From Gemmatimonadota bacterium (GTDB lineage Bacteria; Latescibacterota; UBA2968; UBA8231): a stretch of 43,434 bases of DNA. The notes beneath the pieces are model-generated. The model was not told the DNA's origin and ran no database searches. It saw only the letters and a list, made by a program, of their open reading frames with translations. The stretch lies in assembly GCA_002712305.1 (NCBI GenBank), contig PATE01000115.1, forward strand, positions 1 to 43,434, in the 5' to 3' direction. Shown piece by piece: positions 14,195 to 30,505 of this stretch (positions are counted from its first letter, which is position 1; every line of letters starts with the position of its first letter). The position numbers and the translations under genes are program-made.

Positions 14195-15379
14195 CTACAA
14201 CACGCTGACCACAGCCCTGCAAAGGGCGTCGACGTTGTCCGGCGTCACGCCTGCAACGTTGATTCTCCCCGAGCCGACGATGTAGACGGCATGTTCTTCG
14301 CGCAGTCTCTCTACCTGCTTTGGGTCGAGTCCGCTGAACGAGAACATCCCCTTCTGCCGGGTGATGAAGGAGAAATCCTGCGACGCCCCATGGCGCTGCA
14401 GCCCCTCGACGAGGGTCTGCCGCATCCCGTTGATGCGTTCGCGCATTTGCGTCAGTTCCGCCAGCCAATCGGCCCGCAGCCCTTCGTCACTCAGAATGCA
14501 TGTGACCAGCGCAGAGCCGTGCGCAGGGGGATTTGAGAAGCTCGTCCGCACGCAGATCTTGAGCTGACTCAAGACGGTTTCGGCACGATCTGCGCTGCCC
14601 GTGACCACCGTCAGGGCGCCCACCCGGTCTTGATACAGACCGAAGTTTTTTGAATAGGACGTGGCGACGAACATTTCCGGCACCTGCTCGCAGAACAGCC
14701 GGAGGCCGGCCGCGTCTTGCTCGAGTCCGTCGCCGAAGCCCTGGTAGGCAAAATCCACGAGGGCCAGTGCCCCTCGGTCGGCCAGCAATTTTCCTGCTGC
14801 CTGCCACGTGTCTGCGTCGAGGTCGACGCCTGAGGGGTTGTGGCAGCACGCGTGTAACAGTACCACATCACCCTTCTCGGTCTGCTGCAGGGCTTCGAGC
14901 ATGCCAGGTGCATCGAGCCCTTTCGCCTCTGAGTTGTAGTATCGATAGGACAGACACGGAACTCGCGCCGCTTCGAAGATCTTCGGGTGATTTGCCCAAG
15001 TCGGATCGGGCAGCCAGATGCGGGCATCGGGGAAATGGTTGGCGATGAAGTCTGCAGCCACCCGTAGTGCGCCCGTGCCACCGGGGGTTTGCACGGTCAC
15101 CGTGTCGGCCGAATCTGCGCGATCCTGCCCGAAGACCAGTTCACGCACGAGCCGTCCATAGGCGGGGGTGCCGTCGATGGGCAAATAGGTCTTGCTCGAG
15201 CCCGCCGCAAGAAGCCGGGCCTCGGCGGCGCGAACGACATCGAGGACGGGGGTTTTGCCTGAAGCATCACGATACTCGCCGACACCGAGGCTGATCTTGT
15301 GCGAACGGTCGTCAGCGGCGAAAGCAGCTGACAGACCCAGAATGGGATCGGGAGGGGCAGAAGGGACACGCTCGAACAC
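14195..15379 (-). CDS. Aspartate/aromatic aminotransferase, class I (AspC/TyrB type)
   Basis: 394 aa, the usual length. It transfers amino groups between aspartate or aromatic amino acids and 2-oxoglutarate, using PLP in the cytoplasm. Motifs: ISLGVGEYRD near the N-terminus, TYLPIDGTPAYG, TVQTPGGTGALR, the substrate-side WLPDPTWANH, HACCHNPSGVD, DFAYQGFGDG (PLP-binding Asp and Tyr), SYSKNFGLYQDRVG with the catalytic lysine K244, and GMFSFSGL plus GRINVAG (substrate carboxylate Arg) at the C-terminus. These are specific to the Ia subgroup represented by E. coli AspC and TyrB; sequence alone does not separate the two. It converges on the cysteine desulfurase with a 6-nt gap. Confidence 0.93.
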   Translation of the reverse strand: MFERVPSAPPDPILGLSAAFAADDRSHKISLGVGEYRDASGKTPVLDVVRAAEARLLAAGSSKTYLPIDGTPAYGRLVRELVFGQDRADSADTVTVQTPGGTGALRVAADFIANHFPDARIWLPDPTWANHPKIFEAARVPCLSYRYYNSEAKGLDAPGMLEALQQTEKGDVVLLHACCHNPSGVDLDADTWQAAGKLLADRGALALVDFAYQGFGDGLEQDAAGLRLFCEQVPEMFVATSYSKNFGLYQDRVGALTVVTGSADRAETVLSQLKICVRTSFSNPPAHGSALVTCILSDEGLRADWLAELTQMRERINGMRQTLVEGLQRHGASQDFSFITRQKGMFSFSGLDPKQVERLREEHAVYIVGSGRINVAGVTPDNVDALCRAVVSVL

Positions 15380-15420
15380 AGCGTCGCACCGTTTCTAGGC
15401 TGGCGCCAATGGAGGGTCGG

Positions 15421-15433
15421 GGCTCAAAGAGCC
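15421..15433 (-). terminator. Weak hairpin after the MCE/folA operon
   Basis: A 5-bp inverted repeat GGCTC-AAA-GAGCC lies about 20 nt beyond the folA stop in the direction of transcription. No U-tract follows, so intrinsic termination here is doubtful. Confidence 0.2.
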
Positions 15434-15453
15434 GGATGACGATAGGAGACAAT

Positions 15454-15948
15454 CTACGACGAGATGGACGTGACTCGTTCGTAGGTCAAATAACGTAATC
15501 CGTCCTCTTCTCTAACGTCAACGATCTTCCACTCTTCGGCCGACCAGACGGGGAAATAGGTGTCGCCATCATCCACGACATCGGGCACATGGGTCAGGAT
15601 CAACTGGTTGGCCACGGTCAGGGCCTGCTCATACACCCCCTGCCCCCCACAGATGTACACGGTCTCACAGGGCAGGTTGCGGCAATGCTCGAGGGCGCCG
15701 TCAAGATCATCGAACCGCAGCGCACCCTCGGCTAGTTCATACTGCTCTTGTCGCGTCAGAACCAGATTGAGTCGGCCCGGCAGGGGGCGCCGGGGGAAGG
15801 ACTCGTAGGTCTTTCGACCCATCACGCAGGGGGCGCCCATGGTGGTGCTCATGAAGTGCTGCATGTCGGCCTTGTAGTGCCACGGCATTCCGCCGGCGCG
15901 TCCGATGACATGCTGTTCGTTGAGGGCGGCAATGAGAGAAATCTTCAT
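15454..15948 (-). CDS. folA: Dihydrofolate reductase
   Basis: 164 aa, typical size. It reduces dihydrofolate to tetrahydrofolate with NADPH. Motifs: ISLIAALNEQHVIG at the N-terminus, the MPWHYKADMQHF block with the catalytic acid (ADMQHF), VMGRKTYESFP (NADPH phosphate binding), RLNLVLTRQ, and VYICGGQGVYEQAL, the GG motif; DGDTYFP matches the conserved D-T-x-FP. The ATG overlaps the stop of the upstream ABC ATPase gene by 4 nt, so it is the last gene of the MCE lipid-transport operon. No thymidylate synthase gene is nearby. That metabolic gene at the end of a transport operon is unusual but the overlap makes co-translation likely. Confidence 0.95.
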   Translation of the reverse strand: MKISLIAALNEQHVIGRAGGMPWHYKADMQHFMSTTMGAPCVMGRKTYESFPRRPLPGRLNLVLTRQEQYELAEGALRFDDLDGALEHCRNLPCETVYICGGQGVYEQALTVANQLILTHVPDVVDDGDTYFPVWSAEEWKIVDVREEDGLRYLTYERVTSISS

Positions 15949-16730
15949 CCAGCGCTTCCCGCGTTCGTTGAATCTGGATGGAAGAAGCGCTTTAGTCCCT
16001 CCAGGCTAGACTGGCGGGCATCGGTGACGGTGCCATCGTAGGCGACCCGTCCCGCGTCGAGCATGATGAGATCGCCATTGAGTCGATCGATGCTGAGCAA
16101 TTCATGCGTGACCACGACGATCCCCATGCCGAGTTGATCGTTCAGCGATAGCAGAAGCCGGTCGATGCCGGCGGCGGTCTCCGGGTCGAGGCCGGCACCG
16201 GGCTCGTCACAGAACAGGATCTCCGGTTCCAGGCTCATGGCTCGAGCGAGGGCCGCACGTTTGCGCATACCGCCTGACAACTCGCTGGGCAGCAGGTTGA
16301 CCGTGCCACCGAGGCCGACCAATTCGAGGCGGGTGCGGACCAGATCGTCGACGTAGTCGGCAGCCAACTCCGTGTGCATCTGCAGGGGGAGCGCCACATT
16401 CTCACCCACAGTGAGAGAATTCAGCAAGGCGCCATACTGAAACATGACTCCCACGCGCTTGAGTAGACGCGCCTGCTCCGACTCAGGCAGTTCGTGCATC
16501 GGTTCACCGAGCAGGCGGACTTGCCCCGACTTGGGTGACACCAATCCGATGATGGTCTTGAGCAAGGTGCTCTTGCCACACCCTGAACCGCCCACGATGC
16601 ACAGGACGGCACCATCCTCCACCCACACATCGACCCCATCCAGTACGCGATGCTCGTCATCGTCGGTGCCATACGAGACACAGAGGTTCTCGACTTCGAC
16701 AACGGCCTGAGATGAAGTAGACGTCGGCAT
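15945..16730 (-). CDS. MCE-system ABC transporter ATPase (MlaF-like)
   Basis: 261 aa ATP-binding subunit of an MlaFEDB-type phospholipid transporter at the inner membrane. All ABC motifs are visible: Walker A GGSGCGKST (47-55), Q-loop Q98 in MFQYGAL (the FQxGAL form typical of MlaF/Ttg2A), signature LSGGMRKRAALARA (151-164), Walker B ILFCDEP (171-177) with GAGLDP, and the H-loop VVVTHE. The C-terminal tail (EGLKRFFH) is like MlaF, where it contacts the partner. It lies 6 nt downstream of the MlaE-like permease gene and overlaps folA by 4 nt. Confidence 0.93.
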   Translation of the reverse strand: MPTSTSSQAVVEVENLCVSYGTDDDEHRVLDGVDVWVEDGAVLCIVGGSGCGKSTLLKTIIGLVSPKSGQVRLLGEPMHELPESEQARLLKRVGVMFQYGALLNSLTVGENVALPLQMHTELAADYVDDLVRTRLELVGLGGTVNLLPSELSGGMRKRAALARAMSLEPEILFCDEPGAGLDPETAAGIDRLLLSLNDQLGMGIVVVTHELLSIDRLNGDLIMLDAGRVAYDGTVTDARQSSLEGLKRFFHPDSTNAGSAG

Positions 16731-16736
16731 GTGTTT

Positions 16737-17894
16737 CTACCGCAGGTAGAAGATCAACCCCCAGGTCAGATCCAGGACGATGATGGCGAAAATGGAACTG
16801 ACCACGGCTGACGTCGTCGCATTGCCCACCCCTGCGGCGCCACCGCGGAACTGCAGTCCGCGAAACACGGAGATGATCGTAATCACCCAGGCGAAGGAGA
16901 GGGATTTGATCAGCCCTGTGATGATATCCTTCAGCAACAATGCGTTTGTGACGCGGTTGAAGAAGGTGGCTGGGGAGATGTCCAGAGAAAGAACGCCCGT
17001 GACCGTTCCACCCAGAAGCCCCACGAAGTCTGCCATGATCGTCAGCAGAGGGACGCTGAGCAGCATGGCCCACATCTTGGGGACGGCCACGAGTTTCAGT
17101 GGATCGATGGCCATCGTGCGCAGCGCGTCGATCTCTTCGGTGAACTTCATCGTCGCGATTTCGGCGGCGAAGGCGGACCCGGATCGTCCCGCGATCATGA
17201 TCGCAGTCATGAGCGGTCCCAACTCTCGAGTGATCCCGATGGCCAGCAGGTCGGCCACCAGAACGTTGGCGCCGAACTGCCGGAGCTGAGCCGCCGCTTG
17301 AAGGGTCGACACGCCTCCCACGAGAAACAGAACGAGGGTAACGATGGTCAGTCCCTGGGCGCCGATGATGCTGGCCTGCTCGACAAACGAACCGCGGCGC
17401 ATCCCACGCTGTTGAAAGAGGCTTGTGAAGGTGGCCCAGGTGAGATCGGACATGACGTAGAGGAACTGCAAAGCTGCATTGACGTCGCGGAAGGCTCGGT
17501 CACCGACGCGATCGAGCAGATGTTCAGCGGTCTCCTCGATCTGCTTCGGCTCATGAGCCTCGGCCCCAGGCTTGGCCCCAGACTCAGACTCAGACTCGAC
17601 AACAACCTCCGTGGAGGCCTTTGCCACCGCCTCATAGAAGCCCAGCAGAGACTCGGGAAGGTGACCCACCTCGATTTGCCGTCCGAGCGTCGCTGCAACG
17701 ACCGGCAACCGTCGAACCCATACGGCGCCACCGGTGTCGATGCGGTCGACGGTGCTCAGATCGATCCGCAGGCCTGAAGCGGGGTTGGTGAGCAGGAGTC
17801 GGCGCAACTCGGCATCGGCGTCGGCGACGCTGGCCACCGTCAAGGCACCCGAGACGCGAAGGACGTCGTCGCTCAGTTCGAGGCGCGCCGTCAT
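16737..17894 (-). CDS. STAS-MlaE fusion permease of an MCE lipid transporter
   Basis: 385 aa. Residues 1-~95 form a STAS domain of the MlaB type (LSDDVLRVSGALTVASV, then IDLSTVDRIDTGGAVWV). An acidic linker (~100-125), encoded partly by a hexanucleotide repeat (17581-17597), precedes an MlaE/DUF140 permease (~130-385) with five or six membrane segments and the characteristic IGITRELGPLMTAIMIAGRSGSAFAAE and MKFTEEIDALRTM coupling-helix blocks. In E. coli MlaB and MlaE are separate subunits; here they are fused, an arrangement also found elsewhere. Its partners are the adjacent ATPase, MCE protein, lipoprotein and barrel. Confidence 0.92.
   Translation of the reverse strand: MTARLELSDDVLRVSGALTVASVADADAELRRLLLTNPASGLRIDLSTVDRIDTGGAVWVRRLPVVAATLGRQIEVGHLPESLLGFYEAVAKASTEVVVESESESGAKPGAEAHEPKQIEETAEHLLDRVGDRAFRDVNAALQFLYVMSDLTWATFTSLFQQRGMRRGSFVEQASIIGAQGLTIVTLVLFLVGGVSTLQAAAQLRQFGANVLVADLLAIGITRELGPLMTAIMIAGRSGSAFAAEIATMKFTEEIDALRTMAIDPLKLVAVPKMWAMLLSVPLLTIMADFVGLLGGTVTGVLSLDISPATFFNRVTNALLLKDIITGLIKSLSFAWVITIISVFRGLQFRGGAAGVGNATTSAVVSSIFAIIVLDLTWGLIFYLR
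17581..17597. repeat. Short hexanucleotide tandem repeat in the STAS-MlaE linker
   Basis: GACTCA is repeated almost three times (17581-17597), coding for SESESE in the linker between STAS domain and permease. Copy-number change in steps of six would keep the frame, so it would alter only linker length. Confidence 0.5.
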
Positions 17895-17901
17895 GGCGGG
17901 A

Positions 17902-19416
17902 TCAGAAGAAGCGGGAGAAGCGCAGCAGGACCTGCTCGCGACCCTGGGTATCGTCGAGCGTCTGGTTGCGTTCCAGGTCTGCGACGAGATCGAGGTTGAT
18001 GAAACTGGTCAACACGATGCGCAGTCGATTCTTCCACGTGAAAAACCAGTCTGCGCGGTCTCGTGAGGTCATGAGCAGATCGAACTCGGAGTCGAGGTTT
18101 ACGTAGCGTGAAAGACGTGCATCCATGATCAGCAGCGCTTCGAGTCCGGTGCTGGATGTCGACTCCAGTTCGGTGATGGTACGCTGGTCGTCGACTTCAC
18201 CGAGTTTGAAGTTGTCCGTCACCAGGGTTTGCTGTGCGCCCACACCCAGACGAAGGTCCATGTTGAGGGCAAAGCTGCGGATCAACTGTGAGTTGATGCC
18301 CACACCTTCACGAAAGGTGAGAGGCGAAAGGGCTGGGGCCAGGGTCAGTTCCTCACGGCTCTGGAGTGTATCGACGGCGCCGCTCTTCAGGGTGCGCACC
18401 ACGTCTTGAGGGGATGCGAAACGCGCATCATCTGAAAACAGTGTGGTCTGCACAACGCCACGCAGATAAGGCCCAAAGCGCGGTGACAATCTGCGGATAT
18501 ACGTGGCCCGTACTTCGGCGCGATCCGTACTCTTTCTCAGATCTTCACCCTCTTCTTTCGTCGCCCCTTCCTCTAGAATGACCCGGATGCTGGCAAAGTC
18601 ACGATCGGTACTGTAGCGGGTTCGATTGAAGACCTGCACTGTGAAGTTGAGGGAGGCCCGATCGTCACCACCGGTGTTCTGGGAGGTGTTCAGCTGAGCC
18701 GCCCCCGACAATTCGGTCTGCGAGACAACCGATGTCGCCGAGCGAAAGGCCTGGGATTGCTCTACGAGGCGCGGGTAGAAACCGATGAAGTCTCCCGATC
18801 CTGAATCAAAGATGAGATTTCTCTGGGTGAGGGTTCCGGGCTGCAGCTGCACACTGAACTTGCGGATCGTCGTGAAAGACTCACCCACTCGGACGATGTG
18901 ATAGACGCCTGGTTTGAGCAGCCACGTGCGTACTCGTTCGCCGCGTTCCTCTTCGATTCCGAAACCGAGACCATAGGTCTCACCCGTGGTGGCATCGAGG
19001 ATCTCGTAGCTCTCGTTGACGGCGGTTCGTGTATTGTCGAGCACGTCGATGACCAGACCGGACCAGTCCGGTTTCAGCAACGTCCGTTCGCCATCGAAGA
19101 TCGGTACGGTCTTGCTGAATCGCTGCGCGATCGCACCGGATCCGAAAAACAGCTCATAGGTACCCGGGTCGAGCGGGATCCCGATCCCGGGTGACGCAGA
19201 TGAAACGATCCGGCCGTCACGCCAGATCTGATAGCTCGGTTCATTGCCCAGGGTCATGGCCGGGACGAAGAGCAGTCCCTTGCCTTTCGGGATCAACACC
19301 TGATCCTGCTGCAACTGAGCCCGGGCCGGCAGCGCGGTCCACGTGCTCTCGTCAGCCGATGCAAGCACGACCGATCCGATAAGCAGAGCCGCTGCAATTC
19401 CGCTTCGTCGGCTCAT
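17902..19416 (-). CDS. Predicted outer-membrane beta-barrel protein of the MCE operon
   Basis: 504 aa with an N-terminal signal peptide (SGIAAALLIGSVVLASA, residues ~5-21). Residues ~22-210 are beta-rich and look like small Ig/PEGA-like modules (PLDPGTYELFFGSG, LLKPGVYHIVRVG, each ending a GxY strand). Residues ~210-504 alternate polar and hydrophobic residues with many Tyr/Phe/Arg and end in RFSRFF, the aromatic C-terminus expected of a Bam-inserted barrel. I do not recognise the family. Its place between the auxiliary lipoprotein (4-nt overlap) and the STAS-MlaE gene (7-nt gap) suggests an outer-membrane partner for lipid exchange, which is inference. Confidence 0.75.
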   Translation of the reverse strand: MSRRSGIAAALLIGSVVLASADESTWTALPARAQLQQDQVLIPKGKGLLFVPAMTLGNEPSYQIWRDGRIVSSASPGIGIPLDPGTYELFFGSGAIAQRFSKTVPIFDGERTLLKPDWSGLVIDVLDNTRTAVNESYEILDATTGETYGLGFGIEEERGERVRTWLLKPGVYHIVRVGESFTTIRKFSVQLQPGTLTQRNLIFDSGSGDFIGFYPRLVEQSQAFRSATSVVSQTELSGAAQLNTSQNTGGDDRASLNFTVQVFNRTRYSTDRDFASIRVILEEGATKEEGEDLRKSTDRAEVRATYIRRLSPRFGPYLRGVVQTTLFSDDARFASPQDVVRTLKSGAVDTLQSREELTLAPALSPLTFREGVGINSQLIRSFALNMDLRLGVGAQQTLVTDNFKLGEVDDQRTITELESTSSTGLEALLIMDARLSRYVNLDSEFDLLMTSRDRADWFFTWKNRLRIVLTSFINLDLVADLERNQTLDDTQGREQVLLRFSRFF

Positions 19417-20228
19417 GGCTCCTCCTGCGTAATCAGCGTTCCGGGCAGCACGACGTAGTCTTTCGTCGAGCGTGGCATCTCCTCTTCCTGGGCCTTGGGG
19501 AGCGTGTCCACGGCGGCATCGCCATTCTGATTGTCGAGCAGGACAGCAATGTCTCGGCCCTCAGCCTGCAGCTTGCGCAGCAACATCCGGCGGTCAATCT
19601 CGTAGATCGAACGCTCCACGTTGAAGCGCAGCAACTCGCGCAGGGCGCGGACGGAGATCACGGGATCTCGATCGAAGACCTCCTCCTCGACGGGGTCGAA
19701 ATTCCGCTGCCAGATGATCGTATTCTGCCGGTCGAGCAACTGCATGCTCACGTCAAGCGTAACAAACCATCGATCTCCGCTGTCATGGCGCTCGATGGCG
19801 GCAACGGAGCCCGTGAGTGTAAAGTCGGGGGCGTCGTCGAGGAATTCCTGACGAACATCGGTGAACAGCTGCGCTTGCTTCAGGTAGGATTCGACGGCGT
19901 CGGTGATCATATCACTCGGGCGAACACCCCACACATTGTCGGGGTCGAAGCGAACCTCCTCCGGGGAGAGGCGGAAGACGATCTGGTCGCGTTCGTAGAA
20001 GCGAGAGACGGAAAACTCTTCGAGCTGCACTCGATATTCGTATGGCCGTTCCGACAGGGGCATGGACAGACGCAGCGGAAGAGCTTCGATGACGAATTGA
20101 CGCCTGACACGTCGTTCTGCCTTGCCGCCGATCAACTGGGTGCAGGAAGACAACCACAGGCAAGCGCCCAGACAAATGGGGAGGATCCAGATTCTGCCAA
20201 CGAAGTTTCGCATCTTGACCACGCTCAT
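19413..20228 (-). CDS. ABC-type transport auxiliary lipoprotein (PqiC-like)
   Basis: 271 aa. A signal sequence ends in the lipobox LSSC (Cys29), so this is a lipoprotein. The body matches the auxiliary lipoprotein family of MCE systems (PqiC/YmbA type): a YRVQLEEFSVSRFYERDQIVFRLS segment corresponds to the 'xxVxxFxVxxxYxxxxIVYR' start, followed by a DMITDAVESYLKQAQLFTDV helix, a TLTGSVAAIERHD strand and a VSMQLLDRQNTIIWQRNFD segment. The C-terminal ~45 residues are disordered. In PqiABC the lipoprotein sits at the outer membrane. Four-nt overlaps on both sides tie it to the MCE gene and the barrel gene. Confidence 0.85.
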   Translation of the reverse strand: MSVVKMRNFVGRIWILPICLGACLWLSSCTQLIGGKAERRVRRQFVIEALPLRLSMPLSERPYEYRVQLEEFSVSRFYERDQIVFRLSPEEVRFDPDNVWGVRPSDMITDAVESYLKQAQLFTDVRQEFLDDAPDFTLTGSVAAIERHDSGDRWFVTLDVSMQLLDRQNTIIWQRNFDPVEEEVFDRDPVISVRALRELLRFNVERSIYEIDRRMLLRKLQAEGRDIAVLLDNQNGDAAVDTLPKAQEEEMPRSTKDYVVLPGTLITQEEP

Positions 20229-21193
20229 TCCTCACGACCTCGAATCAGGATCGACGGATCTTCACGAATCAATTCCGTCGCCTGTCTCACGTTGAGCAGC
20301 GTTTCCTCGAGATTCTCCATAGCATCGAGAAGACTCTTTCGCCCCTGAAGAACGGTCCGATCGATGTGCAGAGCTGTCGTGTCGATATTGCCCGCCATCG
20401 TGGTCAGTTGTGTCATCAACTCGGGCAAAGGCCCCTCCAACTGATGCCGAAGAGCTTTCACGGCCAGGTGCAGATCGTTGGCGGTCTCTCGCATCTGCTC
20501 GGAGGCCACCGCATGATGCAGAGAATCCATGGTGGCTCGCATGTTCTGCGTCGTGGCTGCGAGATGTTCCGTCATGGCTGCCATATTACGGATCGAGGCG
20601 TGCAGCTCGTTTTCGTTTTCGGATAGGAGCGTGTTCGCCGTCTCCATCACATTGCCGCCCGAGGTGAGCAGGCGATTGAACTGGTGCTGATTCTCGGGGT
20701 TGGTCAACTCTCCGAGATTCGAGATGAGCATCTCGATCTTGTTCAGTAGAACATCCGCCCGTTCCTCCATGTTGGCGAAAAAGGTCCCCTTCGCAGGAAT
20801 GGTCGAACCTGGTGGCAGGGGAGGCGAGTCGTTCGAACCGGCAACCAGTTCAATGTATTTGAGCCCCGTCACGCCCTGGCTGAACAACAGAGCCTGCGTA
20901 TCCTGCCGGATGGCATTGGGAATCTTCTTCGCCTCGAGAGAGATGTCGACGACGATGAGACTGATGTCTTCGGCAGAGACGCGTGTGTTTTCGACGCGAC
21001 CCACGGTAACGCCCTGATACTTCACCGGGTCGCCGGCGGTGAGCCCGCCAATCGATCGCTCGAACTCGATGCTGTAGTCAATCCGCTGGCGCAAAAGCTG
21101 AGCACCCGCGACGACGAGCAGGAATCCCGCCAGCACACAGGAGCTGAAGATGAGGAACAGTGCGAGGCGGATCTTCTGGGCTCGGGTAGCCAA
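20225..21193 (-). CDS. MCE-domain protein (MlaD-like)
   Basis: 322 aa. A single N-terminal transmembrane segment (~10-33, LALFLIFSSCVLAGFLLVVAGA) is followed by one MCE domain (~38-115: YSIEFERSIGGLTAGDPVKYQGVTVG and later ALLFSQGVTGLKYIEL), which forms the hexameric periplasmic lipid tunnel in MlaD. Residues ~145-310 are long helices with repeated Asn/Thr/Met, as in PqiB/Mce-type tails that may extend the tunnel toward the outer membrane. The start appears to be TTG at 21193: no in-frame ATG precedes the transmembrane segment, and no strong ribosome binding site is visible. It is the first gene of the six-gene operon and overlaps the auxiliary lipoprotein gene by 4 nt. Confidence 0.93.
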   Translation of the reverse strand: MATRAQKIRLALFLIFSSCVLAGFLLVVAGAQLLRQRIDYSIEFERSIGGLTAGDPVKYQGVTVGRVENTRVSAEDISLIVVDISLEAKKIPNAIRQDTQALLFSQGVTGLKYIELVAGSNDSPPLPPGSTIPAKGTFFANMEERADVLLNKIEMLISNLGELTNPENQHQFNRLLTSGGNVMETANTLLSENENELHASIRNMAAMTEHLAATTQNMRATMDSLHHAVASEQMRETANDLHLAVKALRHQLEGPLPELMTQLTTMAGNIDTTALHIDRTVLQGRKSLLDAMENLEETLLNVRQATELIREDPSILIRGREE

Positions 21194-21383
21194 ACCATGT
21201 GTCGACGTGAAGAGAGAAGAGATCCGTGATGGTGATACTCGAGTGCACGATCAAGTTTCGTCATGCACTCCAGCCAACCGCGAGATTGCTGGTTCATCCA
21301 GCAGCCACGACGGGCGCCCAATATGATGAAACGGGTGAACTCATACAAGGCGTTGAACCAAGGTGAGTGTGATTCTCAAGGCG

Positions 21384-21480
21384 GTGACCGTGGTCACACA
21401 TCCTATCCTTTGCCAACCGGTGGGCCACGGTGGCCGTGTCAGATGGGTTGGGTCTCCGTGCCAGAGATGTTGGTTAACCA
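21384..21480. repeat. Cluster of three short palindromes upstream of the MCE operon
   Basis: The 288-nt gap between the lipid-kinase stop and the MCE start contains GTGACC-GT-GGTCAC (21384-21397), GGCCAC-G-GTGGCC (21423-21435) and TGGTTAACCA (21471-21480). None is followed by a T-run in the minus-strand direction. They could be operators for the MCE operon or 3'-end structures of the kinase transcript; no other gene-like content was seen in the gap. Confidence 0.35.
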
Positions 21481-21481
21481 G

Positions 21482-22411
21482 TCAGGGGTCAAGGGGTCGC
21501 GGGGCCAGAACGGTCAACGCCTCTGGGATCACCTGCAGCATCGCAGGTGTGTGCGCGAGACGTTCGCCGTCGGCGTGTAGCACTTGCCCAACGCCGTCGA
21601 GGGACTCGACACGCAACCAGGACGTGCGTTCGACGCGCACGGCCGCGTTGCCGATGTGGCGACCGCGTAGCGCCCGTGGAAGGAGCCTCATGATGGAGAG
21701 CCGGGACATCGAGCCGTCGACGATGACGATGTCGAGCAGTCCGTCCGTCGGCTGAGCGTCGGGAGCAATCTGAATGCCGCCGCCGTAAGAGGCGGTATTG
21801 GCCGTCGCCACCAGCCAGCAGGAACTCTCGATTCGACCAAAGTCTCCCTCGAGACGCAGCGGGCGAGGCCGATACGTGGCCAAGGTCTTCAACGTCGTCC
21901 ATACATAACCGATCGTCCCAGGGAGCCTGACGCGGCCGGTGAGTTTCGCTTCGCTCACCTCGGCATCGAGACCCACGGCGGCCACCGTGACAAATCGGCG
22001 TTCACCACAGCCAACCAGATCGATACGCCGCGAATGCCCCGCGAGAAGGATGTCGATGGCCTCCGGCCCAGTTGGAATTCCCACGGCTCTGCACAGATCA
22101 TTTCCACTGCCACTGGGAAGGAAACCGATCGGAACCTCGGCTGGAATGGGGGCCTGCAGGACTTCGTTGATTGTGCCATCACCACCGGCGATCACGATCG
22201 TCGTTGTGTCATCGGCCAGGGCCTGCTTCGCCGCCTCCGTGGACTGACCGACTGCGTGCCCCCACAGGACATTCGTCTCGATACCCGCTTTGCCAAGGGC
22301 AACCGAGCAACGTTCGACGGCCTGCCGAGCCCGTCCACGCCCCGCATAAGCATTGGCGATGATGGTCCAGGGGCCCTGTGCCGCTGAGTTTGTCATCACC
22401 GGCATGGACAT
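21482..22411 (-). CDS. Diacylglycerol-kinase-family lipid kinase (YegS/DgkB-like)
   Basis: 309 aa. N-terminal catalytic domain with IIANAYAGRGRARQ, the nucleotide-binding IVIAGGDGTINEVL and FLPSGSGNDLCRAVG, all diagnostic of the DAGK catalytic fold. The C-terminal beta domain contains AAVGLDAEVSEA, YGGGIQIAPDAQPTDGLLDI and LHADGE, which supply the remaining metal and substrate residues. Such enzymes phosphorylate diacylglycerol or related lipids with ATP at the membrane surface. It lies 288 nt upstream of the MCE operon in the same direction and starts back-to-back with the plus-strand lipid genes. The exact start (ATG 22411, 22405 or 22396) cannot be chosen because no clear ribosome binding site is seen. 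Confidence 0.9.
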   Translation of the reverse strand: MSMPVMTNSAAQGPWTIIANAYAGRGRARQAVERCSVALGKAGIETNVLWGHAVGQSTEAAKQALADDTTTIVIAGGDGTINEVLQAPIPAEVPIGFLPSGSGNDLCRAVGIPTGPEAIDILLAGHSRRIDLVGCGERRFVTVAAVGLDAEVSEAKLTGRVRLPGTIGYVWTTLKTLATYRPRPLRLEGDFGRIESSCWLVATANTASYGGGIQIAPDAQPTDGLLDIVIVDGSMSRLSIMRLLPRALRGRHIGNAAVRVERTSWLRVESLDGVGQVLHADGERLAHTPAMLQVIPEALTVLAPRPLDP

Positions 22412-22989: not shown

Positions 22990-25900
22990 ATGATCCGCCA
23001 ATATTTCCGTGGTCGCTGCCTTCTGGTCACGGGCGGAACCGGTTTTGTCGGTCAGGCGCTGATCGCCAAGATCCTGACCGGTCTTGGAGACGAGGTGGAG
23101 CGGATCTATGCAATCATCCGGCCTCGCCGCCGGGCGGATGGGCAGATCGTGGAGCCCGCACAGCGATTGATCGAACTGTATGAGTCCTCTCTGTTCGACG
23201 CCTTACGCAGCGATCCGGATCGATGGGAGAGCCTGAAGCAGAAGGTCATCCCCATCGCCATCGACGAGCGGCAAGCGGATCTGGGACTGTCACCGGAGGA
23301 TCGTCAGCGGATCGTGGCCGAAGTGGACACGATCTTCAACAGTGCCGCCACGGTGGTATTCGATGAGCCCCTCAGCGTTTCGCTGCAGGCCAATATCGAT
23401 GGACCCATGGCACTGCTTGAACTCGCCCATGAGAGTGCCAAGAAGCATGGCAAACAGGTGCACTTCGTCCACGTGTCCACCGCCTACGTCAACGGTCAGC
23501 GACATGGGGTCATCGCCGACGAGGAACTGCCCCTCGATCGGGATATGCGGCAGGTCATCGACGGTTTGCCACCAGGCTACGATCCCATCGCCGATATTGC
23601 GGACTGCCGTGCCGTGTGCGAACGAACCGAGCAGCAGTCTCGATCCGATGAACACATCCGCCGATTCAAACGAGAGATTCTGGCACAGCACAAGAGCCTT
23701 TCCCGGAAACTGACCAAGAGCCGTCTGGATCGACTGACCGAGGAGCGCCGTCAGCGCTGGGTCGATCGGCGTCTTGTCGACGAGGGGATGGAACGCGCAC
23801 GAGCTCACGGCTGGAACGATGTGTACACCTATACCAAAGCCGTTGGTGAGCAGGTGCTCACGCTGAATCGAGGCTCCCTGCCCCTGGTCATCGTTCGACC
23901 GAGCATCATCGAGAGCAGTCTGCAGGAGCCGGAGCCGGGTTGGATCACCGGGCTCAAGGTGATGGATCCGCTGCTGGCCGCTTACGGTCGCGGAATGGTG
24001 CCGGATTTTCCTGCTCGACCCGATGTCATCCTCGATCTGATTCCCGTGGACAAGGTGGTCAATTCCACCCTCGCTGCTGCGACGACAGCCAACGCCGAGC
24101 AGGTCCTCGTCTACCACATCTCTACAGGCGACGAGAATCCTGTTCGAGTACACGAAGTATTCGAGCACGTGCGTGGCCACTTTCTCGCCATGCCCATGAT
24201 CGATCGCGATGGCAAGTCGCCGAAGCTGCCCCAATGGCGATATCCATCGGTGCGCATGTTCCGGTTCATCTTCCATCTGTTGTACATGTGGCCGATTCAA
24301 CTGCGCGAGTGGTTTGGTAGCAGGACGCCCTTCTACACGATATCTAGTCGGCAGCGGCGTTTTCTGGGTACGGCGAAGGTTCGCCTGCAGCGGGTGCTCT
24401 ACTACACGGACATCTATCACCCCTACACGAATCTCGATTGCCGCTTCAAGACGACGTCGACGCGGACGCTCTTCGAAGCGCTCCCCGCCGATGAGCAGCG
24501 TGCCTTCAACCTGGATGTGCGCGGCATCGATTGGGCCCACTATATCGGCAAGGTCCACATCGCCGGCCTGCGGCGGCATGTGCTGCGTGAAGATCTGGAC
24601 AGGGAACTGCCCGAATCGCCAGATGAGCTGGGCGCCATCGAGCAGCGTCTGCATGCAGAGGAGCAGATTCACACGCTTGCAGATCTGCTGCGTTGGTCAT
24701 GTGAACGTCACGCCGGTCGCGTGGCGCTGCAGATCCAGCGCCAGGGGCATCTGGAATGTTGGACCTACGATCAACTGGTCGTGGAGGTAGGGCGTCGCGC
24801 TGGTCACTGGCAGCGGCTCGGACTCGCAGCAGGTGATCGTGTGCTGCTGCAGGGCGCCAACGGCCCGGAGTGGGTGCAGTCCTACTTCGCCGCCACCATT
24901 TCCGGTCTCGCTGTCGTGCCCGTGGATCCGCAGACCCAGGTCGACGAGATCGAGCGGTTGATCGAGTACGTCGATGCTCGCGCCCTGATCGCTGAACCTC
25001 AGGTGCTCAGTGCCGTCCACGATGCCGATCTGGCCAGGATCGAGCTCCACAGCGGCCGCATGAATGACCAGCCGATTACCGACGGCCCCTTCGACGAGCC
25101 AGCGATCGACCCACAGATGGAGGCCTCCATCATCTTCACGTCGGGGACCCTGGTGGATCCGCGAGGGGTGGTGCTCACCCACGCTAACTTCGTCGCCGAC
25201 GTGCTGGCCCTGGCCGAAGTGCAACCTGTGGATTCGACAGATCAAATCCTGTCGCTCCTGCCGCTTCATCACGGCCTCGAGTTCACAGGAGGGTTGTTGA
25301 TGTCTCTGTGGGGCGGGGCCACGACGAGTTTTCTCGATGGCCTCAACAGTCGTCGAATCGTGGAGACGATGACGGCGACGGGCACGACGGCCCTGATCGC
25401 GGTGCCGCGGATCCTTCAACTGCTCGTGGATCGCCTGCGCCGGGTTGCACCGGCCGGGGCCGCGGGTGAGGGACCCGAGGCAGAGGCGTTGAAGCGGCTT
25501 CGATTGGTCGTCAGTGGCGGTGCTCCATTGAGCGGCCGTCTGTTCGACGCCTGCGAGGAGCTGGGTTTCCATGTCCACGAAGGCTACGGACTTACCGAGG
25601 CGGCACCCATCGTGACCGTCAATCCGCCCGGCCGCCCCCGTCGCGGCTCGGTGGGCCAGGCGCTGCCAGGGATCGAGATCCGTATCGATTCAGCCACAGA
25701 GATTGGAGATGGTGGTGACGTGCCGCTCGGTGAAGTGCTGGTGAGAGGCGGAAACGTTATGGCCGGTTACCTCGGGCGCCCAGACATCACCGAGACGTGC
25801 CTCGCCGACGGGTGGCTGCACACAGGGGACTTGGGTTACCTCGATACGGAGGGGTATCTGTATCTCGAGGGTCGCGCGAAGGATCTGATCCTCACCGGCG

Positions 25901-27234
25901 CGGGCAAGAATGTGTATCCGGAGGAAGTGGAAGCCCTCTACGGGGATCTACCGCAGGTGGCCGAACTCGCCGTGGTGGGTGTTCCGTCACCGCGAACCGG
26001 GGGTGAAGAGGTGCGAGCCGTCGCCGTTCTGAATCGACAGGCCACCCAGGACGACGGGGAGGCGGCTCAAGCGCAACTGCGCGAACAGGTCTATGCAAGG
26101 GCTCGACAGTTGCCCACGTATCAGCGAATCCAACGCCTGCATTTGCGCGATCGTTCTCTGCCACGGCTGGACAACGGCACGCCAGATCGGCACGCTCTCG
26201 TTGCGGAACTGATGGCCGATCCTGATCGACCTGCACAGGCGGTGGGTGTGGAACCATGGGAACGACCGATCTATGCATGGTTCCACCAGCACACGGGTCT
26301 CGAGACGGATGAGATTCGAGCCCTCGCCACGGCGCCGTTGGATACACTGCTGGATTCGCTCATGGTCGCCGAGTTTGCGGCCTGGCTCGAGCCCCATGTC
26401 GGCGAACAGCAGATGATGGGACTGGATCGAAGTCAGGTGAGTCTTGCCGACCTGTTTGGACGTTGGCGGGAGGTCCTGTCATCGGAAGACGTCTCAACAG
26501 AGTTGACGTCCCAGATGGAGCAGGATTCATCTCTCGGCGCGACGTACTGGAATCAAGCGGTGGCGACGCCTCAGGCTGCAGGTGCAGGGATGGGGCTGGT
26601 CCGGCGTGGGTTGTGGTCCATGGCCTCTGTGCCGCTGCGGAGATACCTGTCTCTGCGCGTCGATGGACTCCAACACCTGCCAACGGACGGTCCGTGCCTG
26701 TTCGCGGCCAACCATGTGAGTGATCTGGATGCCGTCGCCATCCAGCTGGCTCTGCGTTCGCGCACAGGCAACCTCGTGGTGGCCGTCGAAGGCCCCGTCG
26801 TCGAACGCCAGGGGTGGGAGGTCGGCTGGTGGTCGTGGATGCTCGGGGCCATGCGGCTGGATCGCTGCGAGCGACTCGAGGATGGAATCGGGCGGCTGGC
26901 GGGCACTCTGCAATCAGGAAAGTCCATCTTGTTGTTTCCCGAAGGGAGACGCTCGCCGAGCGGGCATCTGAGGGGGTTCAAGAGCGGGGTGGGGCTACTG
27001 GCTCTCGAACTGAACTGTGCCGTCATTCCCATTCACGTGGCCGGCAGTCTCGACGTGTTGCCTGGCAGCAGCCGACGTCCGCGTCGTCACCCGGTTCACG
27101 TGCGCATCGGTCCACCGGTCATGCCTGCTGGTTTTGAGCAGCGTCCGGGATTGTCGACCTACGAGCGCTATCGAGAGCTGACCGAAGCGGTACGAACTCA
27201 AGTCGCCGATCTCGGCGATCGAGCCTCTGACTGA
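22990..27234 (+). CDS. ElbD-like multidomain enzyme: fatty acyl reductase, acyl ligase, carrier, acyltransferase
   Basis: 1414 aa with four recognisable units. (1) A fatty-acyl-CoA reductase of the extended SDR type: GGTGFVG (15-21) for NAD(P), VHVSTAYVNGQ, the catalytic Y279-x3-K283, then a FAR C-terminal domain around residues 440-500. (2) An acyl adenylating domain (~555-1075): IIFTSGTLVDPRG (~714-726), EGYGLTEAAP, DGWLHTGDLG and the A10-type GAGKNVYPEE (K973). (3) A small carrier-like domain with LLDSLMVAE, Ser1123 being the phosphopantetheine candidate. (4) A PlsC-type acyltransferase with NHVSDLD (H1242, D1247) and FPEGRRS (1316-1322). The same set of activities occurs in Myxococcus xanthus ElbD, which makes alkyl ether lipids (Lorenzen et al., Nat Chem Biol 2014). 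An ether-lipid or fatty-alcohol product is therefore likely. It precedes lgt by 26 nt. Confidence 0.93.
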   Translation: MIRQYFRGRCLLVTGGTGFVGQALIAKILTGLGDEVERIYAIIRPRRRADGQIVEPAQRLIELYESSLFDALRSDPDRWESLKQKVIPIAIDERQADLGLSPEDRQRIVAEVDTIFNSAATVVFDEPLSVSLQANIDGPMALLELAHESAKKHGKQVHFVHVSTAYVNGQRHGVIADEELPLDRDMRQVIDGLPPGYDPIADIADCRAVCERTEQQSRSDEHIRRFKREILAQHKSLSRKLTKSRLDRLTEERRQRWVDRRLVDEGMERARAHGWNDVYTYTKAVGEQVLTLNRGSLPLVIVRPSIIESSLQEPEPGWITGLKVMDPLLAAYGRGMVPDFPARPDVILDLIPVDKVVNSTLAAATTANAEQVLVYHISTGDENPVRVHEVFEHVRGHFLAMPMIDRDGKSPKLPQWRYPSVRMFRFIFHLLYMWPIQLREWFGSRTPFYTISSRQRRFLGTAKVRLQRVLYYTDIYHPYTNLDCRFKTTSTRTLFEALPADEQRAFNLDVRGIDWAHYIGKVHIAGLRRHVLREDLDRELPESPDELGAIEQRLHAEEQIHTLADLLRWSCERHAGRVALQIQRQGHLECWTYDQLVVEVGRRAGHWQRLGLAAGDRVLLQGANGPEWVQSYFAATISGLAVVPVDPQTQVDEIERLIEYVDARALIAEPQVLSAVHDADLARIELHSGRMNDQPITDGPFDEPAIDPQMEASIIFTSGTLVDPRGVVLTHANFVADVLALAEVQPVDSTDQILSLLPLHHGLEFTGGLLMSLWGGATTSFLDGLNSRRIVETMTATGTTALIAVPRILQLLVDRLRRVAPAGAAGEGPEAEALKRLRLVVSGGAPLSGRLFDACEELGFHVHEGYGLTEAAPIVTVNPPGRPRRGSVGQALPGIEIRIDSATEIGDGGDVPLGEVLVRGGNVMAGYLGRPDITETCLADGWLHTGDLGYLDTEGYLYLEGRAKDLILTGAGKNVYPEEVEALYGDLPQVAELAVVGVPSPRTGGEEVRAVAVLNRQATQDDGEAAQAQLREQVYARARQLPTYQRIQRLHLRDRSLPRLDNGTPDRHALVAELMADPDRPAQAVGVEPWERPIYAWFHQHTGLETDEIRALATAPLDTLLDSLMVAEFAAWLEPHVGEQQMMGLDRSQVSLADLFGRWREVLSSEDVSTELTSQMEQDSSLGATYWNQAVATPQAAGAGMGLVRRGLWSMASVPLRRYLSLRVDGLQHLPTDGPCLFAANHVSDLDAVAIQLALRSRTGNLVVAVEGPVVERQGWEVGWWSWMLGAMRLDRCERLEDGIGRLAGTLQSGKSILLFPEGRRSPSGHLRGFKSGVGLLALELNCAVIPIHVAGSLDVLPGSSRRPRRHPVHVRIGPPVMPAGFEQRPGLSTYERYRELTEAVRTQVADLGDRASD

Positions 27235-27260
27235 CATTGGATTGCTGACGGAAGCAGAGC

Positions 27261-28037
27261 ATGTATCCCTATTGGCTTGAAATTGGCTCGTTCAAACTGC
27301 CCACCTTCGGTCCCATGGTGGTCTTGGGATTCCTTGTGGCCCACGCCGTGATCAAACGAGAGTTGCTGCGTCGGGAGCTGGACCCCGAACTGGCCTCAAA
27401 CCTGATCACGGCCGCCGTCGTTGGCGGGCTCGTCGGCGCGAAGGGATACTTCGTCCTGTTTGAACTGCCTCCCTGGGCCAGTTGGGGAGATAGTTTCCGC
27501 GCCATCTTTTCGGGCAGTGGTCTCACCTGGCACGGAGGATTCATCGTCGCCACCGGCTCGGTGATCTGGACGATCCGCCGATATGAGGCACCCCTGGCGC
27601 ACGTGGCCGACGCGGTGGGGCTGGGACTGGCCCTCGGCTACGGAATCGGTCGCATCGGCTGTCAACTGGCCGGAGATGGGGACTACGGGATTCCGACGGA
27701 TCTTCCCTGGGGGATGGCGTATCCTAACGGTGTTGTGCCGACCACCGAAATCGTCCATCCCGCCCCGGTGTATGAGACGCTCTCCGGCGCTTCGATTTTC
27801 GCCCTGCTATGGGGGACCCGTCGATGGCTTGCCAACTGGCCCGGTCTCAGTTTCAGCATCTATCTCATGCTGGCTGGCTTGTCACGGGTTCTGGTCGAAT
27901 CCATTCGCCTCAATCCTCAAGTCGCCTTTGGCCTGACCGCCGCCCAGTTGGTGAGTCTTGCCATGATGTTCGCTGGACTGACCATCGCCAGTCGATTGCT
28001 CACACGCCCGCCGAGCGAACAAGACACCGTCTCATGA
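27261..28037 (+). CDS. lgt: Prolipoprotein diacylglyceryl transferase
   Basis: 258 aa integral inner-membrane enzyme that moves diacylglycerol from phosphatidylglycerol to the lipobox cysteine of prolipoproteins. Visible signatures are the SGLTWHGGFI loop (His-Gly-Gly), ALGYGIGRIGCQLAGDGDYG with the essential Arg, WGMAYPNG, and HPAPVYE, followed by the late-helix R in LSRVLVESIR. About seven transmembrane helices can be traced. A GGAAG ribosome binding site sits 6 nt before the ATG. It may act on the lipoproteins encoded elsewhere in the window. Confidence 0.95.
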   Translation: MYPYWLEIGSFKLPTFGPMVVLGFLVAHAVIKRELLRRELDPELASNLITAAVVGGLVGAKGYFVLFELPPWASWGDSFRAIFSGSGLTWHGGFIVATGSVIWTIRRYEAPLAHVADAVGLGLALGYGIGRIGCQLAGDGDYGIPTDLPWGMAYPNGVVPTTEIVHPAPVYETLSGASIFALLWGTRRWLANWPGLSFSIYLMLAGLSRVLVESIRLNPQVAFGLTAAQLVSLAMMFAGLTIASRLLTRPPSEQDTVS

Positions 28038-28068
28038 CGACTGCCTCGAATTAGAAGGAGCTGCAACC

Positions 28069-29559
28069 GTGGCCGAGCGGCCCAGATACCGAAGAGTCTC
28101 TGCCTTGAAGACGGCGGCCGATGTGCGCCAGCACCTGGCTGACCTCGACGGCGACTTGCCCGTCGATGATGACATTCTCAGAGCACCGGACTCACCGCTG
28201 GCATCGTCGCTGCGGGTGGGGGACGATCTCGTGGCGGGCAATCGATTCTGCATTCACCCCATGGAAGGGTGGGACGGAACCGAAGACGGTCTGCCAACCG
28301 ATAATGTGCGCCGGCGCTGGAGAAATTTCGGGATTTCGGGGGCGAAACTGATCTGGGGCGGGGAAGCGTGTGCCGTTGTCCCCGAGGGGCGTGCCAATCC
28401 GAATCAGCTGATGGCACGTGAAGAATCACGCCAGGGACTGGCCGAACTCCACACGCTGATCTTCGACGCGCACCGTGAGCGTTTCGGCGACACCGATGAC
28501 TTCATCGTCGGCCTGCAGTTGACACACTCGGGTCGGTTCTGTCGACCCTTCAGCAAGGCGCGGATGGAACCGGTCATCGCGCACCACCATCCGATTCTGG
28601 ATCGCAAGTTCCATGTCGATGCCGACCAGCCTCTCATTACCGACGACGAGTTGCGCCGACTCATCGACTGCTACATCACCGGTGCCAAGATCGTTCACGA
28701 TATTGGCTATCACTTCGTCGATGTGAAGCACTGCCACGGATATCTGGGTCACGAACTGCTCGGAGCGCACACGCGCCCCGGCGACTTCGGTGGTTCCTTC
28801 GAGAATCGGACACGGTTCCTGCGCGAGATCGTGGCCGGGATCCGTGCTGCCACTGGTGGTGGTGGGAATCCGATCGCGATTGGTGTGAGACTCTCTGCTT
28901 TCGACTTCGTGCCTTTCATGCCTGATCCGACCGGTGCGGTCGGGAGCAAACTCGGGCCGGGCATTCCAGAGGATTTCAGCGACTGCCTTCCGTACGACTA
29001 CGGGTTTGGTGTCGATGCCGATGATCCTCTCGCAATCAACTTCGCCGAGACCTTTCGTTTTCTGGATCTGTTGGGCGAACTCGACATCACATTGGTGAAC
29101 CTGTCCTGTGGTTCACCTTACTACAATCCGCACATTCAGCGACCGGCCCTGTTTCCGCCCAGCGACGGGTATCAACCCCCCGAAGACCCACTGGTCGGCG
29201 TTGCACGTCAGGTGAATGCGGTGAAAGCGATCAAGCAGAGATACTCCGATCTGGCCATCGTCGGTTCGGGCTATTCGTATCTGCAGGAATATCTGCCTCA
29301 CGTGGGCCAGGCCCTCGTACGCGATGGGGCCGTCGATTCGATCGGGCTGGGTCGCATGGTGCTGTCCTATCCCGATCTGCCTGCAGACGTACTCGAGAAG
29401 GGGGCGATGACGAGAAAGCTCATCTGCCGCACCTTCTCCGATTGTACAACGGCACCACGCAATGGCATGATCTCCGGGTGTTATCCGCTGGACGCCTACT
29501 ACAAGGATCTGCCTGAAGCGACCCAACTGAAGGAACTGAAGGCGGTCGCCGGCGACTGA
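28069..29559 (+). CDS. Old-yellow-enzyme-family FMN oxidoreductase
   Basis: 496 aa from a GTG start with AAGGAG 10 nt upstream. It has the TIM-barrel features of NADH:flavin oxidoreductases: NRFCIHPMEGWDG (FMN), GAKLIWGGEACAV, LQLTHSGRFCRP with the substrate His/Gly residues, GYHFVDVKHCHGYLGHELL with the H-x-C/H-x-H catalytic pattern, FENRTRFLREIV (flavin-facing Arg), VNLSCGSPYYNP and the phosphate loop GLGRMVLSYPD. It is about 100 residues longer than compact OYEs but lacks the FAD/NAD halves and [4Fe-4S] cysteines of dienoyl-CoA reductases. Its substrate is unknown. The PIG-L deacetylase gene follows by 28 nt. Confidence 0.88.
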   Translation: MAERPRYRRVSALKTAADVRQHLADLDGDLPVDDDILRAPDSPLASSLRVGDDLVAGNRFCIHPMEGWDGTEDGLPTDNVRRRWRNFGISGAKLIWGGEACAVVPEGRANPNQLMAREESRQGLAELHTLIFDAHRERFGDTDDFIVGLQLTHSGRFCRPFSKARMEPVIAHHHPILDRKFHVDADQPLITDDELRRLIDCYITGAKIVHDIGYHFVDVKHCHGYLGHELLGAHTRPGDFGGSFENRTRFLREIVAGIRAATGGGGNPIAIGVRLSAFDFVPFMPDPTGAVGSKLGPGIPEDFSDCLPYDYGFGVDADDPLAINFAETFRFLDLLGELDITLVNLSCGSPYYNPHIQRPALFPPSDGYQPPEDPLVGVARQVNAVKAIKQRYSDLAIVGSGYSYLQEYLPHVGQALVRDGAVDSIGLGRMVLSYPDLPADVLEKGAMTRKLICRTFSDCTTAPRNGMISGCYPLDAYYKDLPEATQLKELKAVAGD

Positions 29560-29587
29560 ACACACGCCACGACAAGGGAAGCCGATC

Positions 29588-30505
29588 ATGCACGATGGAT
29601 GGTTTGAAGAAGACACGACGCACGGCCCAGTTCGCGTAGACACCTTCGACGAGTCGAGGCCACATGAAGGCAAGGTCCTCGGCATTGTGCAGGCCCATGC
29701 AGACGACATGCCCCTGTGTTCCGGGGGGCTGGTGGCCAAACTCGTTGCTGAGGGGTACAAGGCTTTCATCATTCAGACGACCAATGACGAAAAGTGTGGC
29801 CCCGGGTCGAGTGGTGATGCCATCAAGAGCAACGAGGTCGATGTCGATGCTCTGGCGAAAAGTCTCGGCATCGAAGACGTCTTCAATCTGGGCTATCGGA
29901 ATCATCGCCAGGAAGAGAACTCGATGCTTGAGCAGCGCTGTCGGCTGATCTTCCTGTTTCGTCATCTACAGGTGGATACGGTGATGAGTTTCCACCCGTG
30001 GGCGCGTTGGGAAGAGAATCCCGACCACTACATCACGGGGCAGTTGGTGGAGTCGGCGTGCTGGATGGCGGGTATGGGGAAGGACTATCCCGAACAGGTG
30101 CAGGCGGGGATGAAGCCACACGGCGTGCGGGACAAGTATTACTGGGTCATGCGGCCGGGGTCGCCCTACAACCACGTGACAGACATCGCGCCCTTCCTGG
30201 GTGAGAAGATCGCCTCCATGTCGACGAACAAGTCACAGGGACCGGCGGGCGCTCATGGGCGCAGGTTGAAGGAGCGCCTCGCCAAGGAAGGTCTGAAGTT
30301 GCCAGAGTTCGGCGACGACGATGAAGAGGCCGATCGTGCCTACATCCGGCTGTTCGGGATGGAAGAACACAAGCGAATGGGTAAGCCCTACGACTTGGAA
30401 TACGCCGAGTATCACTACTACTTCCCACCGGGGGGGACCTTCCCATATCACGACACGGCAGGCAAGATCGAGGCGTATGTGAAGGACAATGCGGTGAAGT
30501 TGTAG
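29588..30505 (+). CDS. PIG-L/LmbE family deacetylase
   Basis: 305 aa. The zinc-dependent N-acetylglucosaminyl deacetylase fold begins with VLGIVQAHADDMPLCSGG, where H37 and D40 match the AHPDD motif of the family, and continues with YKAFIIQTTNDEK, DVFNLGYRNHR, and HPWARWEENPDHYITG, in which the distal DH supplies the third zinc ligand. Family members remove acetyl groups from GlcNAc-inositol, bacillithiol precursors or other amino sugars. The AGGGAAG site lies 8 nt before the ATG. The C-terminal ~80 residues include a YAEYHYYFPPGGTFPYHD motif not seen in the mycothiol/bacillithiol enzymes, so a different substrate is possible. Confidence 0.9.
   Translation: MHDGWFEEDTTHGPVRVDTFDESRPHEGKVLGIVQAHADDMPLCSGGLVAKLVAEGYKAFIIQTTNDEKCGPGSSGDAIKSNEVDVDALAKSLGIEDVFNLGYRNHRQEENSMLEQRCRLIFLFRHLQVDTVMSFHPWARWEENPDHYITGQLVESACWMAGMGKDYPEQVQAGMKPHGVRDKYYWVMRPGSPYNHVTDIAPFLGEKIASMSTNKSQGPAGAHGRRLKERLAKEGLKLPEFGDDDEEADRAYIRLFGMEEHKRMGKPYDLEYAEYHYYFPPGGTFPYHDTAGKIEAYVKDNAVKL

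Follow-up and report, generated by a model that had tools for sequence, protein, structure and literature searches.

Gene content of the locus

The window, by which we mean the whole 43,434-nucleotide stretch of DNA analysed here, is contig C115 of a 4.77-Mb genome (G000; 91% complete), and a genome-wide pattern scan identified UBA8231, a Latescibacterota metagenome-assembled genome, as the nearest named relative of this genome. The region of interest consists of 4 genes on one strand and a divergent block upstream of them:

14195..22411, minus strand: divergent block from a YegS-like lipid kinase to an aminotransferase, kept as a neighbour by most of the family
22990..27234, plus strand: ElbD-like four-domain megaenzyme, 1414 aa (Pfam domains; full-length homologue of the ElbD of canonical elb operons)
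27261..28037, plus strand: lgt of a divergent type, 'GRIGCQLAGDGDYG' (PF01790, 4e-42)
28069..29559, plus strand: OYE-like FMN oxidoreductase, 496 aa (PF00724, 5e-16)
29588..30505, plus strand: PIG-L deacetylase, accessory (PF02585, 2e-13), next to OYE in genera g1 and g5 alone

The ElbD–lgt, lgt–OYE, and OYE–PIG-L gaps are 26, 31, and 28 nt, respectively. The coordinates, strand, lengths, and 26–31-nt gaps had been given in a preliminary description of this DNA, and all proved exact on re-reading. Scans for promoters and terminators revealed no signal above chance. The divergent block encodes a YegS-like lipid kinase, MlaD, an ABC_trans_aux lipoprotein, a 504-aa protein, MlaE, MlaF, DHFR, and an aminotransferase; in most of the family, although not in g4, its genes for the lipid kinase and Mla transport occupy this upstream position in divergent orientation. 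The 504-aa protein (17902–19416), which has no Pfam match, is located within the Mla-like operon, is 48%–90% conserved across the family, and may be a transport component.

Domain organization of the megaenzyme

The 1414-aa protein contains the 4 units described previously, including the DSL serine Ser1123, in the order FAR, AMP-binding, ACP-like, and PlsC:

22990..24594, plus strand: FAR domain, aa 1–535 (PF07993, PF03015; GGTGFVG at 15, Tyr279, Lys283)
24667..26214, plus strand: acyl-AMP ligase domain, aa 560–1075 (PF00501, PF13193)
26257..26469, plus strand: ACP-like carrier domain, aa 1090–1160 (Ser1123 codon at 26356–26358; AlphaFold model matches ACPs)
26635..27189, plus strand: PlsC acyltransferase domain, aa 1216–1400 (PF01553; NHVSDLD and FPEGRRS intact in the window)

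The FAR part matches the Pfam families NAD_binding_4 (residues 13–359, 3e-59) and Sterile (residues 467–534), and its closest PDB match is the fatty acyl-CoA reductase 7eoz; the catalytic residues Tyr279 and Lys283 are kept in every relative sequence covering that region. The ligase part contains AMP-binding (residues 568–928, 2e-65) and AMP-binding_C (residues 979–1062), with the GD of its TGD motif present in 21/21 relatives, and the PlsC part matches Acyltransferase (residues 1222–1349, 9e-19). No carrier domain model scored in the Pfam scan of the megaenzyme. Ser1123, which is situated in LDSLMVAE, is invariant in the 21 relatives that cover the site. In an AlphaFold model of the carrier region (mean pLDDT 67.7, two sequences), this serine is located at the start of helix II, and the top 8 structural matches are all acyl carrier proteins (Z 4.7–6.8; next row 2.4). 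The plain Foldseek E-values for the model are weak, and the predicted ACP likeness of residues 1090–1160 is therefore support, short of proof.

The HX4D motif of the PlsC domain is destroyed in all 4 g5 genomes and in G003, and in G002 and G006 the FAR stands alone, immediately 5′ of lgt. In the FAR tree, G002 and G006 are separately nested in the ElbD clade (SH-aLRT 95 and 100; all our trees come from fast searches for which SH-aLRT is the only support measure), which points to 2 losses of the C-terminal half, one in each lineage. Because these 2 lineages dropped everything after the FAR, and g5 and G003 dropped the PlsC motif, the FAR domain is, judging from these sequences, the conserved core of the megaenzyme, that is to say, its constant part is the FAR domain and not the fused tail.

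Relationship to ElbD

The likeness to ElbD that had been proposed is borne out along the entire protein, which is a full-length collinear homologue of ElbD inside canonical elbA–E operons. As references, we used the proteins in myxobacterial genomes with a canonical elb operon, standing in for ElbD of M. xanthus; identity to the ElbD of one of them (G091) is 34% over residues 3–1410. Around the myxobacterial homologues, the genes encode an epimerase, a HAD protein, a LarA-like protein, and a further epimerase, matching the elbA-B-C-(D)-E arrangement published for M. xanthus (PMC9131029). With a threshold of E <= 1e-15, the window FAR domain found a single place per genome in 16/18 myxobacterial genomes; this place is ElbD in the 15 genomes with an open frame read, and in G107 it lies within a 2108-aa frame. 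ElbD of M. xanthus (elbA–E, MIBiG BGC0000871) has the same 4 activities in the same order as the window's megaenzyme. By architecture and homology, therefore, the sequence-based assignment to the ElbD type holds.

Comparison with the M. xanthus system also revealed differences: (i) no HAD (elbB), LarA-like (elbC), or epimerase (elbE) gene lies beside the window's gene, where lgt and OYE are found instead, and these 3 neighbours are absent near the megaenzyme throughout the family and variable even among myxobacteria; (ii) the window's genome lacks CarF (described below); and (iii) in the FAR tree, the window-type FAR is closest to the stand-alone FARs of AGPS operons. In the trees of both halves, the Latescibacterota are apart from myxobacterial ElbD, with few other lineages, a pattern that fits one fusion or two.

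The description of ElbD and its domains goes back to Lorenzen et al. 2014, as cited in PMC9131029. The architecture also occurs in NRPS-like ether-lipid clusters of sponge Acidobacteriota and Poribacteria (PMC9426513). These clusters, compared by description only, likewise belong to uncultured bacteria and share the core enzyme architecture of the window; the genes reported beside them encode hydrolases/dehydratases, oxidoreductases, and fatty acid synthesis enzymes, with lgt unmentioned (PMC9426513). ElbD hits were reported in 50 of 92 Black Sea Latescibacterota MAGs, and the same paper cautions that Pontiella has ElbD hits yet yielded no ether lipids (PMC11868695). The ElbD-type enzyme is thus known; what is new is its arrangement with lgt and OYE, the connection to an AGPS pathway, and the candidate protein X (described below).

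FAR operons in sister families and the AGPS pathway genes

In the sister families f2, f3, and f4, the FAR orthologue is a stand-alone protein (40%–43% identity to window residues 1–535) encoded by the first gene of a FAR–X–AGPS–SDR operon, often with a lipid kinase gene next. The FAR, AGPS, and SDR of this operon are the reductase, synthase, and reductase of the animal ether-lipid route. In the open-access literature, we found no paper that mentions this operon or the linkage of lgt and OYE. In f3 (L063, L064, L066, L068, and L074), the operon faces genes sized like a fab/ACP cluster (putative).

In the window's genome, AGPS, SDR, and X are located away from the megaenzyme, with AGPS (63% identity) at C64:1497–3314, the SDR adjoining it, and X at C48:14522–16447. 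The AGPS matches guinea-pig AGPS over 565 residues (E 1.3e-148); it has the FAD domain, the active-site Tyr, and the HHH motif, with TQTY and SHHHG kept. The SDR family is too broad for assigning an activity. An AGPS match is present in 20/24 family genomes. In g4, where the genomes keep the ElbD-type megaenzyme, lgt, OYE, and X, a clear AGPS is missing from 4 of the 5; the coupling of megaenzyme and AGPS is thus not universal.

X is a protein of about 650 aa found in 45 of the 46 genomes of the class (for example, L060:10607–12625). A Pfam scan of X gave no family above threshold, and a PDB profile search gave no real match. Its HX4D motif is invariant ('THQSLLDH', an H473 and D478-type site), PF01553 was matched below threshold in 3/3 members tested, and motif I is its only segment to align with E. 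coli PlsB. These features tie X weakly to acyltransferases and make it a candidate for a divergent PlsB/GNPAT-like DHAP acyltransferase. We also considered ElbC as the counterpart of X and rejected it; ElbC of a canonical elb operon (L070:6140–7750) has a lactate racemase N-terminal (LarA-like) domain. In G004 (L112:9866–10561), and apparently in G003 (C151:776–1108), X is immediately followed by a PIG-L family gene belonging to a different subfamily, and in g6 and g7 a window-type PIG-L gene is found no more than about 10 kb from X.

PF10520 (CarF/PEDS1) was detected in 3/3 myxobacterial controls and in none of 6 Latescibacterota genomes, the window's included, and we rejected a plasmalogen reading on this ground. 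Since the desaturase was not detected, alkyl rather than vinyl ether lipids would be expected as far as the CarF/PEDS1 route is concerned, and plasmalogens made by that route are unlikely.

Proposed pathway

We consider it fairly likely that the 1414-aa ElbD-type enzyme supplies the fatty alcohol, and probably the sn-2 acyl chain, for alkyl ether phospholipids. The FAR–X–AGPS–SDR operons of the sister families and the AGPS and SDR in the window's genome support the ether-lipid role. Alongside the domains, motifs, gene order, AGPS identity, and sister-family operon, which are observed, we infer the following reactions: (i) the AMP-binding domain would activate a fatty acid and load it onto the phosphopantetheine of Ser1123; (ii) the FAR domain would convert the bound acyl chain to the fatty alcohol; (iii) the PlsB/GNPAT-like X, encoded elsewhere in the genome, would provide acyl-DHAP; (iv) AGPS would replace the acyl chain with the fatty alcohol, yielding alkyl-DHAP; (v) the SDR beside AGPS would reduce alkyl-DHAP to alkyl-glycerol-3-phosphate; and (vi) the PlsC domain would add the second chain. 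In vitro, no alcohol product of ElbD was detected (PMC9131029).

The animal route runs through FAR1, GNPAT, AGPS, and an acyl/alkyl-DHAP reductase. FAR, AGPS, and SDR are all present in the window's genome, the AGPS is strongly similar, and the GNPAT-like candidate X adjoins FAR in the sister families; by contrast, the FAR of the window's family is fused to an acyl ligase, an ACP, and a PlsC domain, and X is very divergent. Under this proposal, an AGPS pathway resembling that of animals would, in an uncultured phylum, include an ElbD-type enzyme, with X as a candidate bacterial DHAP acyltransferase (GNPAT). FAR-type enzymes feeding AGPS have been proposed for other bacteria (PMC11948995).

The family's ElbD might instead be independent of AGPS, as appears to be largely the case in M. 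xanthus, with AGPS belonging to a separate pathway. In M. xanthus, most ether lipid comes via ElbD and little is lost in the AGPS mutant (PMC9131029), and the g4 genomes without a clear AGPS are in keeping with such a route. We nevertheless regard it as unlikely for this family: the orthologous sister FAR shares an operon with AGPS and SDR, most family genomes retain AGPS, and elbB, elbC, and elbE are not near the megaenzyme gene. A different destination for the fatty alcohol, such as wax esters or a hydrophobic storage lipid, is most improbable. FAR domains do feed wax esters too, and farA often occurs without a wax synthase and has other roles (PMC11948995), but AGPS and SDR co-occur with the megaenzyme and share the FAR operon in the sister families.

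In our proposal for alkyl ether phospholipids, lgt and the OYE flavoenzyme would be co-transcribed operon mates of the ElbD-type enzyme, and PIG-L would be accessory.

Conservation of the ElbD–lgt–OYE gene order

Among 24 family genomes, 21 are informative for the genes downstream of ElbD/FAR; G016 and G019, which end at contig edges, and G005, which is split over 2 contigs in a manner consistent with the full gene string, are outside this set. The ElbD/FAR–lgt–OYE order is kept in 20/21 informative genomes. G003 is a real exception, with neither lgt nor OYE beside the megaenzyme; in this genome (L052 and L185), a canonical-type lgt takes the place of the linked one, and the PlsC motif is gone. 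An adjacency conserved in this way within a bacterial family cannot be due to chance. Only g1 and g5 have PIG-L after OYE (with the string complete in G000, G001, G012, and G015); its place is taken by an SDR in g6 and g7, a creatininase in g4, and other genes elsewhere. An MmeI-like restriction-modification protein is encoded downstream of OYE–SDR in G021 (L045:1408–4206), and ORFs of similar size occupy this position in G020, G024, and G010.

The preliminary description had treated the 4 genes as one string. The ElbD–lgt–OYE part of that claim stood, and the gene order ruled out PIG-L as a core part; because PIG-L joined in 2 genera only, "4 genes as one system" is unsupported. Nor did we find support for the lipid-modifying role that had been proposed for the 4 genes, given the replacement of PIG-L and the separation of lgt and OYE from the FAR operon in the sister families. 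A dedicated pathway in which ElbD, lgt, OYE, and PIG-L make and tailor a new ether or alkyl lipid would suit the single strand, the short gaps, and the 4 complete strings, and G005 is consistent with it; it is nonetheless very unlikely, as PIG-L is elsewhere in other genera, lgt is single-copy in most genomes (described below), and OYE stands alone in the sister families, outside the FAR operon.

From these comparisons, the ElbD–lgt–OYE trio is a conserved but family-limited operon. There is a nearly even chance that it is an inherited operon without joint function, a reading compatible with the ether-lipid role of the enzyme. The trio occurs in one family only, and lgt lies apart from FAR and OYE in 15 sister-family genomes. 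Against this, the trio outlasts (i) a divergence to 43%–75% identity; (ii) the replacement of both flanks in g4; and (iii) the removal of everything after the FAR domain in G002 and G006, and its genes overlap by 1–4 nt in g7.

The linked lgt

Most family genomes, among them 2 single-contig assemblies, have the linked lgt as their only copy. Second matches are of the canonical type in G020, a partial copy in G011, and a long divergent copy in G012; that of G005 is one gene split over 2 contigs. The linked type is distinct from the canonical lgt found in f4 and some of f3. It keeps Arg143, Arg239, and Glu243 (E. coli numbering) on the PF01790 fold, and has Phe at position 26 (canonical Tyr) and Cys at position 146 (canonical Asn) in 20/20 sequences. 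Position 103 is His in 5/20, the window among them, and Tyr in 15/20. In some sister genomes, the only Lgt shows these substitutions at positions 103 and 146 too, and these residues therefore do not define Lgt membership.

A second, lipoprotein-tailoring lgt was rejected for most genomes, where the gene is single-copy; the linked lgt is therefore likelier to be a general than a tailoring enzyme, and is probably the housekeeping lipoprotein enzyme. Such a general Lgt would use the phosphatidylglycerol pool with ether lipids in it, and a special substrate for the divergent lgt is possible. As the ElbD–lgt–OYE trio is conserved, a link of lipid supply with lipoprotein acylation, which, like co-transcription, we infer, is also possible. 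In its strongest form, ether-lipid synthesis and lipoprotein lipidation would be one unit, with an Lgt suited to alkyl-acyl phosphatidylglycerol and ether-linked glyceryl anchors, which we consider distinctly unlikely. If lgt is truly tied to the ether-lipid supply, lipoproteins with ether-linked anchors are a testable prediction. A divergent and a canonical lgt were found in one assembly, G046 (L187 on contig C33 and L188 on contig C37).
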